DNA of 64,000 bases. It comes from Phyllobacterium sp. YR531. Lineage in GTDB: Bacteria; Pseudomonadota; Alphaproteobacteria; Rhizobiales; Rhizobiaceae. Each line of letters begins with the position of its first letter. Positions within the stretch are counted from its first letter, which is position 1. The notes beneath the pieces are model-generated. The model was not told the origin of the DNA. It saw only the letters and a list, made by a program, of their open reading frames with translations, and did not search any database. The translations under genes and the position numbers were made by a program. The stretch lies in assembly GCF_000282595.1 (NCBI RefSeq), contig NZ_AKIZ01000013.1, forward strand, positions 62,001-126,000, written 5' to 3'. Shown here in pieces: positions 4,202 to 63,036 of the stretch.

Positions 4202-5305
4202 TCAGGCTACGAGACGACCTGCAGTTTCAGTCTGGGCATAAGCCTTGCCGAAACGGTTAGCCAGGAATGCATCAAGAGCGATGTCTTCCTGCTTGATGAA
4301 GCCCTCTTGTGGAAGATCACCATTGGCAAGCATGTCAAGCACAGCACAGATAGCCGAGGCTGTGGTGATCTGGATGCCGCTGTAAAGCTGCGAACCGATG
4401 TGATTGCTGTAAACCTTGTTTGCATAGGTTTCCTGCAACAGGCGACCCTTCTTGCGGCCACTGACTGTCACAAAGATCACGACCACGTCCTGAAGCGTCG
4501 ATGGCAGCGCGTTTTCAAGAATATCCTTGAATACATCGCGGCGATCGCGCAACCCGAGATCATTCAGCAGGGCCTTCATGATGGCAGCATGGCCTGGATA
4601 GCGGATCGTGCGGTAATTGAGCGTGCGCACTTTACCAAGCAGGCTTTCGCACAATGTGCCAAGTCCGCCGGATGTGTTGAAAGCCTCATAGGTAACGCCA
4701 TCAAGCGAGAACTCTTCACGTTCTTCAAGCGGCGGCACTTCAGTCAATTCACCATCGACGATAGCTTCGCATGGCTCGCAATATTCATTGATAACGCCGT
4801 CTGTCGACCAGGTGAGATTATAGTTCAGCGCATTGGAAGGGTATTGAGGTAACGCACCGACCCGCATACGAACGCTCTCCAACGTGTCGAAACGCTTGGC
4901 AAGATCATTGGCGACGATGGAAATAAAACCTGGAGCCAATCCACACTGCGGAATGAACGCGCTCTTTGCCGTTGTTGCAAGTTGCTTGACGATACGTGTG
5001 CTTGCGACATCTTCGGTCAGATCAAGATAATGCACGCCAGATTTGGCAGCAGCTTCTGCAATGCGAGTGGTCAGGTGAAAAGGTGCCGCACTCAATACAG
5101 CGAACTTGCCATCAAGCACTTTTTCAAGCGCACCAGCCTCTGCAATTTCAATACAGGCAGTGGCTACACGCTCAGAAACCTCAAGTGAATCAAGCTGCGC
5201 TTGTGCTCGGTCGACCACAGTTACGCGGTAGTCTCCTGTCTCGCTCAGCAGATTGGCAATCGTTCCTCCGATTTTGCCCGCGCCTACGACAACGATCTCT
5301 TTCAT
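4202..5305 (-). CDS. Saccharopine dehydrogenase family protein
   Basis: A 367-residue protein starting MKEIVVVGAGKIGGTIA, a Rossmann NAD(P)-binding fingerprint (GAGKIG at about 8-13). The rest matches the saccharopine dehydrogenase-like family (lysine metabolism, carboxynorspermidine dehydrogenase relatives), with HYLDLTEDV and CGLAPGF motifs. The frame is open 28 codons further upstream, but GGGGAA lies ideally before the ATG at 5305, so I used that start. It is transcribed divergently from an Lrp/AsnC regulator 120 bp away, which suggests amino-acid-responsive control and a role in amino-acid catabolism, probably lysine. The exact reaction is inferred. Confidence 0.85.
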   Translation of the reverse strand: MKEIVVVGAGKIGGTIANLLSETGDYRVTVVDRAQAQLDSLEVSERVATACIEIAEAGALEKVLDGKFAVLSAAPFHLTTRIAEAAAKSGVHYLDLTEDVASTRIVKQLATTAKSAFIPQCGLAPGFISIVANDLAKRFDTLESVRMRVGALPQYPSNALNYNLTWSTDGVINEYCEPCEAIVDGELTEVPPLEEREEFSLDGVTYEAFNTSGGLGTLCESLLGKVRTLNYRTIRYPGHAAIMKALLNDLGLRDRRDVFKDILENALPSTLQDVVVIFVTVSGRKKGRLLQETYANKVYSNHIGSQLYSGIQITTASAICAVLDMLANGDLPQEGFIKQEDIALDAFLANRFGKAYAQTETAGRLVA

Positions 5306-7533: not shown

Positions 7534-9510
7534 TCAAGCGCGAATTTCCTGAATTGCATTTTCGATCGACGATGCAAAAAGGCAGTTGCGTGTCGAGCCT
7601 ACAATCTTCTCGCCATCAACATTCTCAGCACCATCGCCCCAGAAGCCAATAATGATTTTTACACGGGCATTGCGACGTCTGATTCGCCTTATCAAATATC
7701 GCGCATGCGCAATCGATGACGTGTTGAGATAACTTATGCAGATTGCACTTACACCTGTGAGTTCGAGCTTGGCTATGTTGGCAGCTTCAAGTTCATCATG
7801 CGTGATGTCGTGCACTTCAAATTCATTACGCTCAAGGATGTCGCCGACAATGACAGCGGCAGCGTCATCAAGGTTACCGCGTCCGCCAGCCGAAATGATG
7901 GTTTTCGGCTTGGCGGGTTCTGTCTTTTTGGTAGGTTTTTTGCCGTCTTGGGCAGGTTGCTCTTCCGTCTCGAGTTCGTCGTCGTCCAAAGGATCGTGGT
8001 AGTCAGACAGGTTCTCGACGAGAAACACCATGCTCTGGGCAACCCTGTTACGCCTTGGAGCATCAAGAACACCACGCCCGCGATCATGCTCAGCCAGCAG
8101 CAGTGCGGGGACAGCGACGGACGAATAATAATCAACCACCGAATTCGACTGAAGATACTCCTCCGCCTTTTCTGTTGCCTCATCAGGATCGCCCGACAAC
8201 AGCCTTTGGTATAATTGTTGCGGCGGTAGCAGCACCGGCTCATTCCCCAGCAGCACGTCCAGAAATTCGAACTTCGGCACATGCCGACCGAGTACGACAA
8301 GGCACACAGTCAGTGGTGTAGATAGAATGAGGCCGATGGGACCCCATATCCATGTCCAAACAATTGCCGCCATGAGAATGGCGACAGGGGAAAGTCCGGT
8401 CTTTGATCCGTAAAGCAAAGGCTCCATAATATTGTTGCTGATCAGCTCAAGCACAATGAAAAGGGACGCTGTCCACACAAGCAGCATCCATCCCGGATCA
8501 ACGGCAAGCGACAGCATCAGTGGGAAGAACGCCGCGATGATTGGACCAATATAGGGTACAAATCTCAGCACAATCGCCAGCATGCCCCATAACATTGGGT
8601 TGGGTATGCCGATCAGCCACAGACCGATGCCTATCGGTACGCCAAAGCTGATATTGATGATAAGCTGCATCAGCAAATATTGACCGACGCGTTTGCCAGC
8701 ATCATGGAGTGCTGTTGTCGTTCGATGAATATCACTGGCCCCGACGAGTTTTATGAACCGGTCGCGAAGATCTTCTCTCCGCATCAGCATGAAAATCACG
8801 ACGACGATAACAATACCGATCGTTGCCAATGGCTGGATGAGCGGCCCCGCAAATGTTTGCAAAAGGCTCAGCGGATCGGGCGGGGGATAGCGTATTTCAA
8901 CGGGAACAGGTTTGTTGGGGTCTTGCGCCTTCAATGCTGTCTCAGCTGCCTGTGACTGTACTTCAACATTTTCCGGAGGCTTTCGCGCCTGGTCAGCATT
9001 TTCAGGCGCTTTGTCGACTGGAAAACGCTCTACTTCGTCGGAACGGCCAATCTCTTCACTGAACCTCTTGAACATACGCGCACCGCGATCAAAAATGCTG
9101 TTACCCGACTGTGCATCTTTGACAGTGCGTATCTTTGTCTCGATATTGTATTGATAGCTGGGCAGATTTTGAGCAAGAACGGTCAGCTGACTGACAACGA
9201 TACTGAAGAATATCGCGATTACCATAAATGCCGTAACGACCACACTGATAACGGCAATGGCTTTCGGTACCCTGTTACGATGCAGGCGCGTAACCAACGG
9301 AGACAAGGCGAAGGTCAGAAGCAGGGCCAGAGCGAGCGGCACGAAAACATCGCTGGCAAAATAAAGTGCCGCGACAATTGCAATAGCGACAATGACTGGT
9401 GGAAACTGTGCCCGGGTATCGGCTTCAACTGCGGCTGGTGAATACACGGATTTACGCGTTACTCGCTCCACGGCACGTGGCGACCGCCCGCTGAAGTCTT
9501 CAGAAGGCAT
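7534..9510 (-). CDS. AI-2E family transporter (PerM-like) with C-terminal B12-binding-like domain
   Basis: A 658-residue inner-membrane protein. Helical pairs near residues 35-75 and 85-115, then a helical block at about 210-400, match the AI-2E/PerM permease family, which exports small molecules or acts with ion gradients. Residues about 520-560 are charged linker (DDDELETEEQPAQDGKKPTKK). The last 120 residues (from about 540) look like an alpha/beta flavodoxin-type domain resembling cobalamin-binding domains (GRGNLDDAAAVIVGDILERN), but the DxHxxG ligand motif has no His. A near-match sigma-EcfG promoter lies upstream. It is divergent from the DUF3309 gene. Transported substrate unknown. Confidence 0.87.
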   Translation of the reverse strand: MPSEDFSGRSPRAVERVTRKSVYSPAAVEADTRAQFPPVIVAIAIVAALYFASDVFVPLALALLLTFALSPLVTRLHRNRVPKAIAVISVVVTAFMVIAIFFSIVVSQLTVLAQNLPSYQYNIETKIRTVKDAQSGNSIFDRGARMFKRFSEEIGRSDEVERFPVDKAPENADQARKPPENVEVQSQAAETALKAQDPNKPVPVEIRYPPPDPLSLLQTFAGPLIQPLATIGIVIVVVIFMLMRREDLRDRFIKLVGASDIHRTTTALHDAGKRVGQYLLMQLIINISFGVPIGIGLWLIGIPNPMLWGMLAIVLRFVPYIGPIIAAFFPLMLSLAVDPGWMLLVWTASLFIVLELISNNIMEPLLYGSKTGLSPVAILMAAIVWTWIWGPIGLILSTPLTVCLVVLGRHVPKFEFLDVLLGNEPVLLPPQQLYQRLLSGDPDEATEKAEEYLQSNSVVDYYSSVAVPALLLAEHDRGRGVLDAPRRNRVAQSMVFLVENLSDYHDPLDDDELETEEQPAQDGKKPTKKTEPAKPKTIISAGGRGNLDDAAAVIVGDILERNEFEVHDITHDELEAANIAKLELTGVSAICISYLNTSSIAHARYLIRRIRRRNARVKIIIGFWGDGAENVDGEKIVGSTRNCLFASSIENAIQEIRA

Positions 9511-57254: not shown

Positions 57255-58487
57255 ATGGCCTATTCAAACAATCCTGCGCTTCAGCCCGGCGAACCTGAAA
57301 TTGCGGTTGCCGAGCCCAATGGCCTGTCACTTGCACTGACTTTCCTGTTTGCCTTCGCCTGCGGCGCGATGGTCGGCAGTATCTATTATGCTCAGGCGCT
57401 GATCGGGCTTATCAGCGATGATCTTGATCTGCATGGCGGCATGGCCGGGTTTATTGTTACGGTGACTCAACTTGGCTATGGCGCGGGCCTGTTGCTGCTC
57501 GTTTCGCTTGCCGACCTTTTTGAAAACCGCCGTCTGGTCCTCTTGACCCTTGGCGGCACCGCGCTTGGGCTTGCCGGTGCTGCATTATCCGGCTCGGCAA
57601 TGACATTTCTGATATCATCCTTCGCCATTGGTTTCTTCGCCTGCGGCGCGCAGGTGCTTGTTCCCTTTGCATCGCATCTCGTTCCGGCGGCTTCGCGCGG
57701 CAGGACGATTGGCAATGTCATGGCCGGACTTTTGACCGGCATCATGCTGGCGCGGCCATTGGCCAATCTCGTGGCTTCCGAATTTGGCTGGCGCGCTATT
57801 TTCTGGATATCGGCAGCAGCAATGCTGGCTGTACTCGTCCTTTTGCGCATTGCCCTGCCAAAGCGTCAGCCGCAAGGCGGCATGCACTACGGCGCAATCC
57901 TCAAATCCATGTGGAACCTGCTTATCACCACGCCTGCCTTGCAGCGCCGCGCCTTTTATCAGGGCATCATCTTCGCCAGCTTCAACCTGTTCTGGACGGG
58001 TATTCCGCTGCTCCTGACGGAGCAGTTTGGCTACAGCCAGCGCCAGATCGCACTGTTTGCGCTGGCCGGTGCTGCCGGCGCTCTGGCGGCACCCATCGCG
58101 GGGCGCCTCGCTGACCGTGGCTACACCCGGCAGGGAACAGCAATCGCAATGATGACGCTAACACTCTGGTTTCTCATAGCAGGCTGGGCCGGTACGGCCA
58201 TCTCTATCGCGGCACTTGTTCTGTCTGCAATCTTTATCGACAGTGCGGTGCAAACCAATCAGATTTTAAGCCAGCGCATTATCTTTTCACTGAATGATGC
58301 AGCACGCGGGAGGCTAAATGCGGTCTATATGACGATCGTCTTCCTGATCGGCTCCAGTGGATCAGCCATCGCTGCCGCGAGCTATTTCTATGGCGGTTGG
58401 TGGGCGACCTGCGTCACCGGAGCTGTCATGGGGCTAATCGTTCTAAGCGTGTTTGCTACCGAGAGAACCGCGAAATCACCCGTGTGA
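57255..58487 (+). CDS. MFS transporter (DHA1-like)
   Basis: A 410-residue, twelve-helix facilitator (LFAFACGAMVGSIYYAQALI in helix 1; GRTIGNVMAGLLTGIMLARP in helix 5). Probably an exporter, substrate unknown. Its last 13 bases, including the stop codon, begin the 64-bp repeat that recurs before purH, so its 3' end marks one border of the inserted islet. Confidence 0.9.
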   Translation: MAYSNNPALQPGEPEIAVAEPNGLSLALTFLFAFACGAMVGSIYYAQALIGLISDDLDLHGGMAGFIVTVTQLGYGAGLLLLVSLADLFENRRLVLLTLGGTALGLAGAALSGSAMTFLISSFAIGFFACGAQVLVPFASHLVPAASRGRTIGNVMAGLLTGIMLARPLANLVASEFGWRAIFWISAAAMLAVLVLLRIALPKRQPQGGMHYGAILKSMWNLLITTPALQRRAFYQGIIFASFNLFWTGIPLLLTEQFGYSQRQIALFALAGAAGALAAPIAGRLADRGYTRQGTAIAMMTLTLWFLIAGWAGTAISIAALVLSAIFIDSAVQTNQILSQRIIFSLNDAARGRLNAVYMTIVFLIGSSGSAIAAASYFYGGWWATCVTGAVMGLIVLSVFATERTAKSPV

Positions 58488-58538
58488 ACTTACGCAAAAA
58501 GGTAGGATTCCGGCGCGGCCTGTGCTAACGGCCAAGCC
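58475..58538 (+). repeat. 64-bp direct repeat, left copy (MFS 3' end)
   Basis: It runs from the last codons of the MFS gene into the spacer (starts ATCACCCGTGTGAACTTACG, ends GCTAACGGCCAAGCC). It is identical to 61319-61382 except for one base (G at 58515, T at 61359). The two copies border the Slam/TbpB-like islet. Confidence 0.93.
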
Positions 58539-58678
58539 GTGTTCGCTCACTTCTTTTAGCAATAATGCGAACCATTCTTTGGTTCATGTATGATACAGGG
58601 CCATATTGCGGCAATCCCAAAAGGGATAATCGAGTCCTGTCAATCGATTGATCGGCCCGTAATTAAGCACTTATTTTT

Positions 58679-60001
58679 CTAGTACTTCTTCGTCAGATAA
58701 ATTCCAAAATTGTGCGAATCGTAATCGTAGAGATCAACATTCGAGCTATTGATGCGATAACCATATTCCAGCCGGGGCGCAATATTTTTATAACTCAGCT
58801 TTCTCAGTGTCAGTCCAACACTCGCGCTGAACTGCCTGTCCTCCCTTCCTTTGCCAGTCATGGGAAATTTGCCGTCAAAGTTTCGGAACTCATATCCCGC
58901 CGCAACACTACCAAGAATACCCAATGGTAGATCGGAGTAAACTTCTAAATTGGGGCGGATGCTTGTATAGGCGTTAAAGTTCTGGGCATTCATCCGCGTC
59001 GCGGTAGCGCCGACACTGGCCAGTAAAGAAGCAGAAAACACGTGCTGATATCGAAGGCCAATGGTCGTTTCCACACCATCATGGTAATCCTGAACATCGT
59101 AATCCAGATAACGCATACGGGCCGTCATCCGAATGGTGTCACCGCTGTTGCCTAGCCGCTTCTGAACATATCCCTGGACGCCATAACCCCAATTATGCCC
59201 CTCCCACGCAAAAGAGGTTCGCGCAAGGGTTGGTCCAATACCGAAACGCCAATCATGAGTCCTATAAGAAAGTTCTGAAAAGACTTGTCCTGACAGCTCG
59301 TCAAAGGCCCGATCACGGTATTTAACGCCGTCCAAGCTCCCGCCAAATGCCAAGGCGAACCGCTCATCCAGTTTGAATTGATAAGTTCCCGAAACACCGT
59401 AGTTGAGACCAACACCACTTTGTTTCTGATTCTTTGGAGTGAAGGGGATGCCCGCTATGAAAATAGTGTCTTCGCTTGCGCCTCTGGTAATATTCGTACT
59501 GGGTGCCAGTGCAATATAACCATCAAGAGTCCAAGGGCGCTTTGCATCTATAGCGTCGATATAGTTATTATAAAGCGACCGGAAGTCTGGAGACTGGCTT
59601 GATGCCGCCAGCAATTCGAATTGGTATTTTGCGTGCTCGCCATCACCTAACAGGAAGTAGGTATGCGCCAATTCCTGGCGCACCCTGTCATATTGTGGAT
59701 AAGCGATAATGATTTGCTGCATCTTCTCAGCAGATGCCTGAAACTGCCTCTGATGCTTCAGTATAAGCGCTTCAGTAAATATCTGGGCAACTTGATTGGC
59801 TTTCCCACCATCACCAGAAGTCGCAACAAGATTGCGAGCCTCGTCATACTCTGATGCTTCGATCAACGCCCTGACTTGCGCAAAAGAATAAGAGGGACCC
59901 TGTTGAACGCTGGCATGCGTTGGCTCAGCCCCAAAGAAACTCAAGAACGCAAATCCATAGCATGATGACTTCACTAAACGCTGGAGCAAGATATTTTCCA
60001 A
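58679..60001 (-). CDS. Slam-type surface lipoprotein assembly modifier (TPR plus outer-membrane barrel)
   Basis: A 440-residue outer-membrane protein. After a signal peptide (FAFLSFFGAEPTHA) comes a TPR-like helical domain (about 38-150, with QELAHTYFLLGDGEHAKYQF). A beta barrel follows from about 155, opening WTLDGYIALAPSTNITRGAS, with alternating aromatic strands to a terminal LTKKY. This is the DUF560/Slam architecture, which moves TbpB-like lipoproteins to the cell surface. The lipoprotein gene lies upstream on the same strand. The frame's start codon is TTG at 60001 without a clear Shine-Dalgarno; no in-frame ATG lies nearby, so the exact start is unsure. Strands look AT-richer than neighbours, suggesting transfer. 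Confidence 0.85.
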   Translation of the reverse strand: MENILLQRLVKSSCYGFAFLSFFGAEPTHASVQQGPSYSFAQVRALIEASEYDEARNLVATSGDGGKANQVAQIFTEALILKHQRQFQASAEKMQQIIIAYPQYDRVRQELAHTYFLLGDGEHAKYQFELLAASSQSPDFRSLYNNYIDAIDAKRPWTLDGYIALAPSTNITRGASEDTIFIAGIPFTPKNQKQSGVGLNYGVSGTYQFKLDERFALAFGGSLDGVKYRDRAFDELSGQVFSELSYRTHDWRFGIGPTLARTSFAWEGHNWGYGVQGYVQKRLGNSGDTIRMTARMRYLDYDVQDYHDGVETTIGLRYQHVFSASLLASVGATATRMNAQNFNAYTSIRPNLEVYSDLPLGILGSVAAGYEFRNFDGKFPMTGKGREDRQFSASVGLTLRKLSYKNIAPRLEYGYRINSSNVDLYDYDSHNFGIYLTKKY

Positions 60002-60157
60002 TGTACGGGAGTTGGACGCATAAACTATGGTTGGAACGGCAGCCGAAATTACACGAATAGGCGCGATGCCTCAGCCAAGATAGTGGGGCGATGCATTAGC
60101 CTCACCCCTCCATATTAACTAAGTAAGTTAGCCCTAATGCGGATAGCACCCATCAAA

Positions 60158-61087
60158 CTACGGTTGCTTTTCACCATGGAACGTACCAATTATTGTTGAG
60201 GTGTCTTCAGCATCGGTCGTGGCGCTGATAATACCAGCTGTCTCGCTTGCATTGGCATTGTAGAAACCGCCCTCAACATTAGCTGCGAGGGTTTCGCCCT
60301 CGAAAGTGACCTTATCTGCTGAGTAGGTTGGCTTGTCCTTGGCTATTGTACCGTCGAATGTCAGGTCGGTTGCATTGAGGTTACCGGCCGCTATTATAGG
60401 ATCTCGATGGGTGGCATTAAGCTCGGACACAGTGCCCTTGACGGTACCTGCTCCAAAGTCAGCAGCGAGATTAAACTTTCCAGAAACGTGCCTTTGCTCG
60501 CCGCCCACAACGCCGCTCTCATTAATCCCGCCGGCAAACTTGCCACGATAGCTAGCCTGACCGGAAGTGGGCACATTCGTTGCATTCACGCCACCATAAT
60601 AAGCAGCTGCATTAAACTTGTCTTTACTGGATTGGTCGCGGAACACACCAAATGCCGTCGGCGCATCCTTGGAATTGATAGATGTATCACTCATGAGAAA
60701 ACGGGTATCATTGCCATAAGGCCCATAGTCCTCACCGCTGTCGCGCCGCGTCCCCGTGGTTGTACCCGTAAATGGCTTATCACCACTATAAGCCAGCTTT
60801 ACCAGAGGCGTATTGCCTTTAAACATAGCAGACTCTGTTTCCGATAGACCGCTGACCTTGGCACCAACATTGACCGCCACCAACTTTCCATCAGCTCCTG
60901 TCACAAAACCATGACCTTTAAGGTCATATTCTGCTACGGATTTTGTCGACTCTGGTTTTGCGACAGTGGGCTGTACGGAAACGGGTTCGCTGCCAGCTGA
61001 CGATGTGGAAACAGTTTTCTCTGAAGAATGGCCACATCCGACCAGAGTCGCGCAGAGGCCAGCGACAAAAAGCAATTTCACAGCCAT
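60158..61087 (-). CDS. TbpB-barrel-like surface lipoprotein, predicted Slam client
   Basis: A 309-residue lipoprotein with lipobox LVGC (Cys18) after MAVKLLFVAGLCAT. A Ser/Pro/Glu tether (about 20-50) leads to a handle-like region, then a C-terminal barrel (about 170-309): SYRGKFAGGIN, GKFNLAADFGAGTVKGTV and GGFYNANASETAGIIS, the pattern of the TbpB beta-barrel domain. Size fits a one-lobe protein such as hemophilin, not the two-lobe TbpB. The ligand is unknown; haem or a metalloprotein is a reasonable guess. No TonB receptor gene adjoins. GAGGGA precedes the ATG at 61087; the frame is open nine codons further. Confidence 0.8.
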   Translation of the reverse strand: MAVKLLFVAGLCATLVGCGHSSEKTVSTSSAGSEPVSVQPTVAKPESTKSVAEYDLKGHGFVTGADGKLVAVNVGAKVSGLSETESAMFKGNTPLVKLAYSGDKPFTGTTTGTRRDSGEDYGPYGNDTRFLMSDTSINSKDAPTAFGVFRDQSSKDKFNAAAYYGGVNATNVPTSGQASYRGKFAGGINESGVVGGEQRHVSGKFNLAADFGAGTVKGTVSELNATHRDPIIAAGNLNATDLTFDGTIAKDKPTYSADKVTFEGETLAANVEGGFYNANASETAGIISATTDAEDTSTIIGTFHGEKQP

Positions 61088-61318
61088 ATAAAATCCCTCG
61101 ATTTGAAAATACATTATTCCTAAAGTTTTATCAGCAAAGCAATACAGTGGAAATTATACTATAGTTTATTTCAGAGTTTATTTTACACAACCGTCTTCAA
61201 CTAGTAATTGATACTAAACTATAATAAAAATTACAAAAAATCTTAAAACCCAATGTGTAGTTTCCATCAAAAGACAGCTCCGGATCGTTATGATAAACAA
61301 TCCTGACATGAATCTTGG
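61088..61318. other. AT-rich upstream region of the lipoprotein-Slam unit
   Basis: A 231-bp gene-free stretch, strongly AT-rich. It holds an inverted pair, ACTATAGTTTA (61158-61168) and TAAACTATAAT (61215-61225), matching at 10 of 11 positions when one is reversed, 46 bp apart. This may be a regulator-binding dyad for the minus-strand transcript. No classic Fur or Irr box was recognised. Confidence 0.5.
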
Positions 61319-61382
61319 ATCACCCGTGTGAACTTACGCAAAAAGGTAGGATTCCGGCTCGGCCTGTGCTAACGGCCAAGCC
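61319..61382 (+). repeat. 64-bp direct repeat, right copy (upstream of purH)
   Basis: The second copy of the MFS-end repeat, one base different, ending 37 bp before the purH ATG. In the presumed ancestor a single copy would have joined MFS and purH directly. Confidence 0.93.
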
Positions 61383-61419
61383 AAATCCATTGATCCATAC
61401 GAAGTTTAAGGACGAACCC

Positions 61420-63036
61420 ATGGCCGTCGCCGCGAAATCTTTTCCCGCTCCCAATCTTCATCCAGTCAAGCGGGCGCTTATTTCCGTTTCCGACAAAGCG
61501 GGCCTGATAGCTCTTGCTCATGCCCTGCATCGCCATGGCATCGAAATCCTGTCCACGGGCGGCACGTCCAAAGCCATTGCAGCCGAGGGTATTCCGGTTC
61601 GCGATGTTTCCGAAATCACCGACTTTCCGGAAATCATGGATGGCCGCGTCAAGACCCTGCACCCCAAGGTACATGGCGGACTGCTCGCCGTGCGTGATGA
61701 TCCGGAACATGTCGAGGCGATGAAGACCCATGGCATCGGCGAGATCGATCTTGTTGTCATCAATCTCTATCCTTTCGAGGAAGTCCGCCATTCCGGTGCT
61801 GACTATGCCAATATCGTCGAGAACATCGACATCGGCGGCCCGGCCATGATCCGCGCTGCCGCCAAGAACCATGCCTATGTTGGTGTCGTTACAGAAACTG
61901 GCGATTACGACATGGTTATCGCCATGCTCGACAAACACGAAGGCTCGCTGCCCTATTCGTTCCGCCAGAGCCTTGCGGCCAAGGCCTATGCCCGTACGGC
62001 GACCTATGATGCGGCTATTTCCGGCTGGTTTGCCGAAGCATTGATGACGGAAACACCTTCGCGCCGCGCCATTGGCGGACATCTCCATTCTGTCATGCGT
62101 TATGGTGAAAACCCGCATCAGTCCGCTGGCTTTTATCTTACCGGCGAAAAGCGCCCCGGCGTCGCCACTGCTACCCAGCTTCAGGGCAAGCAGCTTTCCT
62201 ACAACAACATCAATGATACCGACGCGGCTTTCGAACTGGTGGCCGAGTTCGATCCTGAACGCACATCAGCCGTCGCAATCATCAAGCATGCCAATCCTTG
62301 CGGCGTCGCTGAGGGGGCAACTCTCAAGGAGGCCTATCTCAAGGCGCTTGCTTGCGATCCTGTCTCGGCATTTGGCGGTATTGTCGCGCTCAATAAAACG
62401 CTGGATGCGGATGCTGCGGAAGAAATCGTAAAGACCTTCACCGAGGTCATTATTGCTCCGGATGCTACGCCGGAAGCACAGGCCATCGTCGCTGCCAAGA
62501 AAAACCTGCGCCTGCTCGTAACGGGCGGCCTGCCTGATCCGCGCGCAGGTGGTATCAGCGCCAAGACAGTTGCTGGTGGTATTCTCGTTCAGTCCCGCGA
62601 CAGCGGCGTCGTCGATGATCTGGACTTGAAGGTCGTCACCAAACGCGCGCCGACCGAAGCCGAAATGTCTGATCTCAAGCTGGCCTTCCGCATCGCCAAG
62701 CACGTGAAGTCCAACGCCATTGTCTATGTCAAGGATGGCGCGGCGGTCGGCATCGGCGCCGGTCAGATGAGCCGCGTTGACAGTGCCCGCATCGCTGCCC
62801 GCAAGGCGGAAGATGCCGCCGAGGCTGCTGGGCAATCAACGCCGCTTACCAAGGGTTCTGTCGTCGCTTCCGACGCATTCTTCCCGTTTGCCGATGGCCT
62901 GCTTTCAGCCGTTGCAGCGGGCGCCACGGCTGTCATCCAACCGGGCGGATCAATGCGCGATGATGACGTGATTGCCGCGGCCGACGAACATGGCATTGCC
63001 ATGGTCTTCACCGGCATGCGCCATTTCAGGCACTGA
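61420..63036 (+). CDS. purH: Bifunctional AICAR formyltransferase/IMP cyclohydrolase
   Basis: A 538-residue protein with an N-terminal MGS-like IMP cyclohydrolase domain (about 15-215, [22 protein letters not shown]) and a C-terminal formyltransferase domain with KHANPCG and the conserved His. It performs the last two steps of IMP synthesis. The open frame extends to 61315 through the repeat, but [20 protein letters not shown] at 61420 is the conserved start with AAGGAC upstream. It overlaps the convergent MFS gene by 11 bp. Confidence 0.96.

Follow-up and report, generated by a model that had tools for sequence, protein, structure and literature searches.

Does a pair of minus-strand genes in Phyllobacterium sp. 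YR531 form a complete unit for lipoprotein display at the cell surface, and how did it come to lie between an MFS transporter gene and purH? Slam-related sequences are described from all clades of Proteobacteria in PMC5449769. PMC12282271 gives verified cargo, which includes TbpB, LbpB, fHbp, and haemophilin, for seven of >3,000 outer-membrane proteins of type 11 secretion systems (T11SS), all of them from the animal-associated cluster 1. No rhizobial Slam system appeared, by title, among the matches listed from the open-licence literature. Our analysis of the window, i.e. the whole stretch of 64,000 nucleotides around the pair, makes it very likely that the two genes form a unit for surface display by a Slam (type 11 secretion) protein and that this unit, probably lateral in origin, was recently inserted between the MFS gene and purH.

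A Slam-client pair on the minus strand

A sequence-only reading had placed a Slam gene and a lipoprotein gene on the minus strand, and both ORFs are present (Table 1). The limits that it gave for the locus (58539-61318) are exactly the span between two 64-nt direct repeats, although that reading mentions neither the repeats nor an insertion.

Table 1. Features of the locus and its borders, in window coordinates
Feature	Coordinates	Strand	Evidence
MFS transporter gene, left neighbour	57255..58487	+	PF07690, 132.2 bits; orthologues across the genus
Direct repeat, left copy, 64 nt	58475..58538	+	98% identity to right copy
Insert, 2,780 bp, 47.3% GC	58539..61318	.	Missing from sister species (G648)
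Slam / T11SS outer-membrane protein, 440 aa	58679..60001	-	PF04575; 14-strand model with TPR-like helices
Surface lipoprotein client, 318 aa	60158..61114	-	PF01298; model; PDB profile matches; sequence
Direct repeat, right copy, 64 nt, purH leader	61319..61382	+	Repeat search; alignment with G648
purH (AICAR transformylase/IMP cyclohydrolase), right neighbour	61423..63036	+	PF01808, 402.2 bits; PF02142

The Slam architecture attributed to the larger protein is well supported, given that residues 157-439 match SlipAM (PF04575) with 97.8 bits and an E value of 1e-27 (Pfam cut-off 22). The AlphaFold2 model (18 sequences, mean pLDDT 84.9) predicts seven helices at 40-154 followed by 14 long strands at 157-437 plus one short hairpin, which is the combination of TPR-like helices and a 14-strand barrel set beforehand as the structural test of the 440-residue protein. 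The Pfam profiles TPR_19 (24.4 bits, cut-off 25) and TPR_Slam (22.8 bits, cut-off 35.2) remained under their cut-offs in the window protein; each of the two, like PF04575, matches 18/18 members of the Slam alignment (A4: the window and 17 of 19 related loci, omitting the broken L131 and the truncated L132) at E<=0.01. Foldseek ranked cellulose synthase subunit C (BcsC), in which TPRs precede the barrel, first for the model, with PelBC and OmpG within the best 50. The listed start, TTG at 60001, has no clear ribosome site; translation may instead begin at another TTG, at 59989, which GGAAA precedes.

The neighbouring ORF had been read as a lipobox protein with a C-terminal TbpB-type barrel, and several lines of evidence agree with this. 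Its lipobox, MAVKLLFVAGLCATLVGC, can be read off the sequence with the lipid Cys as residue 27 of the listed ORF, and residues 181-315 match TbpB_B_D (PF01298; 38.8 bits, cut-off 26). FHBP_C scored 22.6 bits, under its Pfam cut-off of 28.1, and the equivalog cut-off of NCBIfam slam_lipo (NF041636) was missed with 56.8 bits vs 80. Among the profiles, PF04575 and PF01298, which cover the two families named for checking in the sequence-only reading, were above their cut-offs, and slam_lipo, TPR_Slam, and TPR_19 below. In the client alignment (A3: the window and 12 clients from 11 of 19 related loci), slam_lipo matches 13/13 members at E<=0.01 and PF01298 matches 12/13 at E<=0.1. A profile of this client family searched against the PDB recovered LbpB (1.4e-17), TbpB (from 2.4e-14), haemophilin (5.2e-11), and NHBA (GNA2132; 7.3e-11), and more weakly fHbp (from 0.00067). 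The likely start of the client is the second ATG, at 61087, behind GAGGGA.

The AlphaFold2 model of the client (13 sequences, mean pLDDT 62.5) is weaker than that of Slam and upholds the expected fold in part: an eight-strand barrel at 186-316 is predicted with confidence for most of its length, whereas the N-terminal half is largely of low confidence (pLDDT <50 at 6-30, at 39-61, and across almost the whole of 89-134). Foldseek groups the model with TbpB, NHBA, LbpB, and HphA; no query-normalised TM-score in the best 50 exceeds 0.42. The closest clients, those of Phyllobacterium sp. 21LDTY02-6 (L116) and Rhizobium tubonense CCBAU 85046 (L115), share 31% and 22% identity with the outer handle (residues 63-134), 54% and 62% with residues 135-182, and 51% and 37% with the barrel, respectively. 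This conserved base with a fast-changing outer part fits the effector, pedestal, and barrel picture published in PMC12282271. The families of both proteins, their pairing, and the lipobox are legible in the sequence, the two folds are predicted, and profiles, folds, and gene order agree on a Slam protein with a one-lobe, lipid-anchored, TbpB-like client in a member of the Hyphomicrobiales.

A scan found three promoter and two terminator sites, at or below the expectation from shuffled sequences (means 4.1 and 3.4), and an Rfam search of 58000-62000 gave no match at E<=1. Upstream of the client gene, an AT-rich segment (61148-61235) contains an inverted repeat of 21 nt with 81% agreement, which a regulator might bind.

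Comparison with characterised systems

The pair resembles Neisseria Slam1/Slam2 (T11SS cluster 1A; clients TbpB, LbpB, HpuA, and fHbp) in the TPR-like N-terminus and 14-strand barrel of Slam as well as in a lipidated client with a C-terminal eight-strand barrel. It differs in the distant sequence of the client, the absence of a TonB receptor nearby, and a host that is no animal pathogen. According to PMC8406197, cluster 1A clients are mostly lipidated two-barrel proteins and those of cluster 1B soluble one-barrel proteins. The window pair shares with haemophilin and HrpC and their T11SS (cluster 1B) a one-barrel client beside a Slam-family protein, and its profile matches haemophilin; however, cluster 1B haemophilins are mostly soluble in that account, whereas a lipobox is present in the window client, whose folded part showed no His conserved among the three nearest clients. 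In having one lobe, it is like fHbp and HpuA, which PMC5449769 describes as one-lobe Slam clients.

The nearest relatives are the pairs of R. tubonense (Slam 62%, client 36% identical) and Phyllobacterium sp. 21LDTY02-6 (Slam 56%, client 42%), which match the window pair in both genes and in their order. Both sit at genomic sites other than that of the window, and no long direct repeat was found across either pair.

Slam-client pairs and TonB receptors in related genomes

Within the window's family, 50 genomes out of 394 carry PF04575, and across the order 31 out of 397 do. The family loci examined were the first 40 of 57 PF04575 matches, with one exception by choice, and are not a random sample. 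Slam was present by phmmer in 33 of the 40 (L103, L106, L108, and L110-L113, with no phmmer Slam hit <1e-5, were left out; the split Slam of L099, in pieces of 349 and 104 aa, was counted once). As to co-occurrence, which the sequence-only reading had proposed to survey, a lipobox ORF is located upstream and ends close to the Slam start at 31 of these 33 loci. The exceptions are L075, where the contig end is too near for an upstream ORF to show, and L079, where the adjacent ORF has a client-like end and no lipobox by pattern. A single Slam at L127 (3746-5777; L077 covers this place too) is preceded by two consecutive lipobox proteins and possibly serves both as clients. A second Slam copy in Marinicella sp. 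W31 (L131, 5759-7062) matches in three separate frames and looks broken. In a plasmid collection, the client had no match and Slam relatives were found in 26 records, all at <60% identity and 15 of them from Sulfitobacter.

The lack of a nearby TonB receptor, already suspected from the letters, extends to the entire contig of the window, on which none of the genome's eight PF00593 matches lies. The comparison also covered 15 further genomes with Slam, namely R. tubonense and 14 from the family, and among the matches listed for them PF00593 was at least 58 kb from Slam or on other contigs; in R. tubonense, no receptor coordinate was within 280 kb of that of Slam, judged by coordinates with contig numbering unmatched. 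By phmmer, no TonB receptor came up at any of 60 loci, but the eight queries cross-detect only six of themselves, which is why the PF00593 search was used. A lipidated one-lobe client without a nearby receptor is the usual arrangement in this family. The novelty implied by calling the pair a minimal variant therefore falls away, all the more since fHbp and HpuA are already described as one-lobe and lipidated (PMC5449769).

Ligand of the client

Haem was one of the ligands suggested from the sequence, and the client could in principle be haemophore-like and supply haem to a TonB receptor whose gene lies at some other place in the genome, where eight receptor matches exist; the profile matches to haemophilins and the Foldseek match to HphA would fit. 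We nevertheless regard this as improbable. The His, Cys, Met, Tyr, and Trp residues common to the three closest clients are M10, C27, H29, Y63, M141, Y173, Y189, and Y264, and the protein has no Trp at all. The sole shared His, H29, is two residues past the lipid Cys, and the folded part contains no His common to the three nearest clients and no shared Met except M141, the handle being poorly modelled there. Without a conserved His in the folded domain, haem ligation by His finds no support in that part of the protein, and the guess of haem as ligand is left unsupported. Likewise, among the matches listed, no receptor gene lies near the Slam genes of the window and of 14 other family members.

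Insertion between the MFS gene and purH

The 64-nt direct repeats that bracket the pair differ at one position, and the stop codon of the MFS gene lies inside the left copy. Searching the genome with the repeat returned two strong copies, both at this locus, and three weak matches (E 0.9-1.8). In the sister species (G648), the MFS gene leads straight into purH with one 64-nt copy (L046, 2721-2784), and 8/10 MFS orthologue loci of the genus (L046-L055) have purH adjacent with no pair between; L053 and L054 show no purH in the available stretch. The insertion, its 64-bp duplication, and the empty sites can be traced directly in these alignments, by which the pair is a clean and recent insertion. 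The two window copies read AC at a place where the sequence of G648 is GT; where they differ from one another, the right copy agrees with G648. The duplication therefore arose within the window's own lineage and is young.

Base composition sets the insert apart, with 47.3% GC vs 56.2 and 58.2% in the flanks and none as low among 307 insert-sized windows taken in 200-base steps over the 64 kb (lowest 47.6%). Slam is present in only two of 19 genus genomes searched. The second pair, that of Phyllobacterium sp. 21LDTY02-6 (G596), is located beside a pdeM-like phosphoesterase gene (PF00149), where the distance from this gene to the next shared stretch is 4.0 kb, vs 0.8-0.9 kb in the window's genome and in G648 (the names pdeM and ABC permease at this site are assignments by reading). 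Each of the two species thus lacks the pair at the other's site. In the Slam tree, the window, R. tubonense, and G596 group together with support of 100/100, the branching order among the three remaining open. This grouping together with the reciprocal empty sites speaks for lateral movement, and the insert was probably acquired laterally. No donor was found, the nearest Slam, that of R. tubonense, being just 62% identical.

The reverse history, a pair ancestral at purH that other species lost via deletion between the repeats, would likewise produce the single copy of G648, and Slam is known from the family, as counted above. This we consider highly improbable, as the MFS gene directly precedes purH without the pair at eight of the ten genus loci (the other two show no purH), both window copies have AC vs GT in G648, the other pair of the genus sits elsewhere, purH adjoins Slam in the window alone among 60 loci, and the GC content of the insert is low.

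Route of entry

Beyond the pair, the insert contains, among ORFs of at least 80 aa, only ones overlapping it (146 and 88 aa), and none encodes a recombinase or transposase; no inverted repeats were found at its ends. A target duplication of 64 bp is longer than those known for transposases. The candidate routes are site-specific integration of a circle and fill-in at a staggered break. To the circle, for which the 64 bp would be the attL/attR core, we give slightly less than even chances: clean direct repeats bound both insert ends, one overlapping the end of a gene, and at other loci a tRNA-Pro lies ~370 bp before the client of R. tubonense and the client of Mesorhizobium sp. J18 (L094) has a MobA/MobL relaxase gene ~2.3 kb away. 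On the other hand, the insert ORFs include no recombinase, and both copies carry the lineage's own variants, so that either the circle would have arisen within this species or repair would have produced the copies.

Mesorhizobium sp. J18 (L094, 4789-12500), where the relaxase gene is of the relaxase-helicase type, also has genes for an LprI-like protein, a papain-like protease, and an OmpA-family protein downstream of Slam on the same strand.

Flank-vs-flank comparison of 39 Slam loci (L075 was omitted, having too little flank) gave direct matches in the window, L100, L077, and L092, and among these four an empty site proves insertion in the window only. At L100, the pair is flanked, near a tRNA-Ala, by a 128-bp direct repeat (88%; 4982-5109 and 9217-9344) that copies the first part of an AMP-ligase gene. 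It was rejected as a second target duplication, since five congeners yielded no close orthologue of the ligase, with 34% as the best identity, and the ligase may be a duplicated island gene. The repeats of L077, present in either orientation, seem dispersed, and that of L092 is just a 27-bp match for which no duplication is claimed. The published link of T11SS to one-carbon and purine genes, exemplified in cluster 3 by dihydrofolate reductase and thymidylate synthase, raised the idea of purH as a recurrent Slam site. This was dismissed, given that purH adjoins Slam in the window only among 60 loci (the window and 59 others, some of which coincide).

A bolder reading, in which the pair is a bare 2.8-kb mobile surface-display cassette that has no recombinase, settles intergenically in rhizobia, and leaves a long target duplication, is unlikely. 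If true, such a cassette would pass binding specificities among plant-associated bacteria.

Proposed function and implications

Homology suggests for the window pair the same translocation path as for Slam1/TbpB. For Slam1, translocation of unfolded TbpB is reported from a purified system, with Skp assisting (PMC9090332). If expressed, the client would be exported via Sec, lipidated at Cys27, and then carried to the outer membrane. There Slam, with its periplasmic TPR domain and 14-strand barrel, would recognise the C-terminal eight-strand barrel of the client and pass the client outward to the cell surface. Its fast-changing N-terminal handle may then bind some ligand there.

The locus thus represents a new, recently inserted, and probably laterally acquired Slam-client pair of an already known machinery type. 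This rhizobial pair, whose one-lobe client is lipidated and has no receptor gene nearby, would offer a compact test case for T11SS in soil and on plants. The clean insertion and the empty site in the sister species further show that a genome can gain such a pair as a whole.
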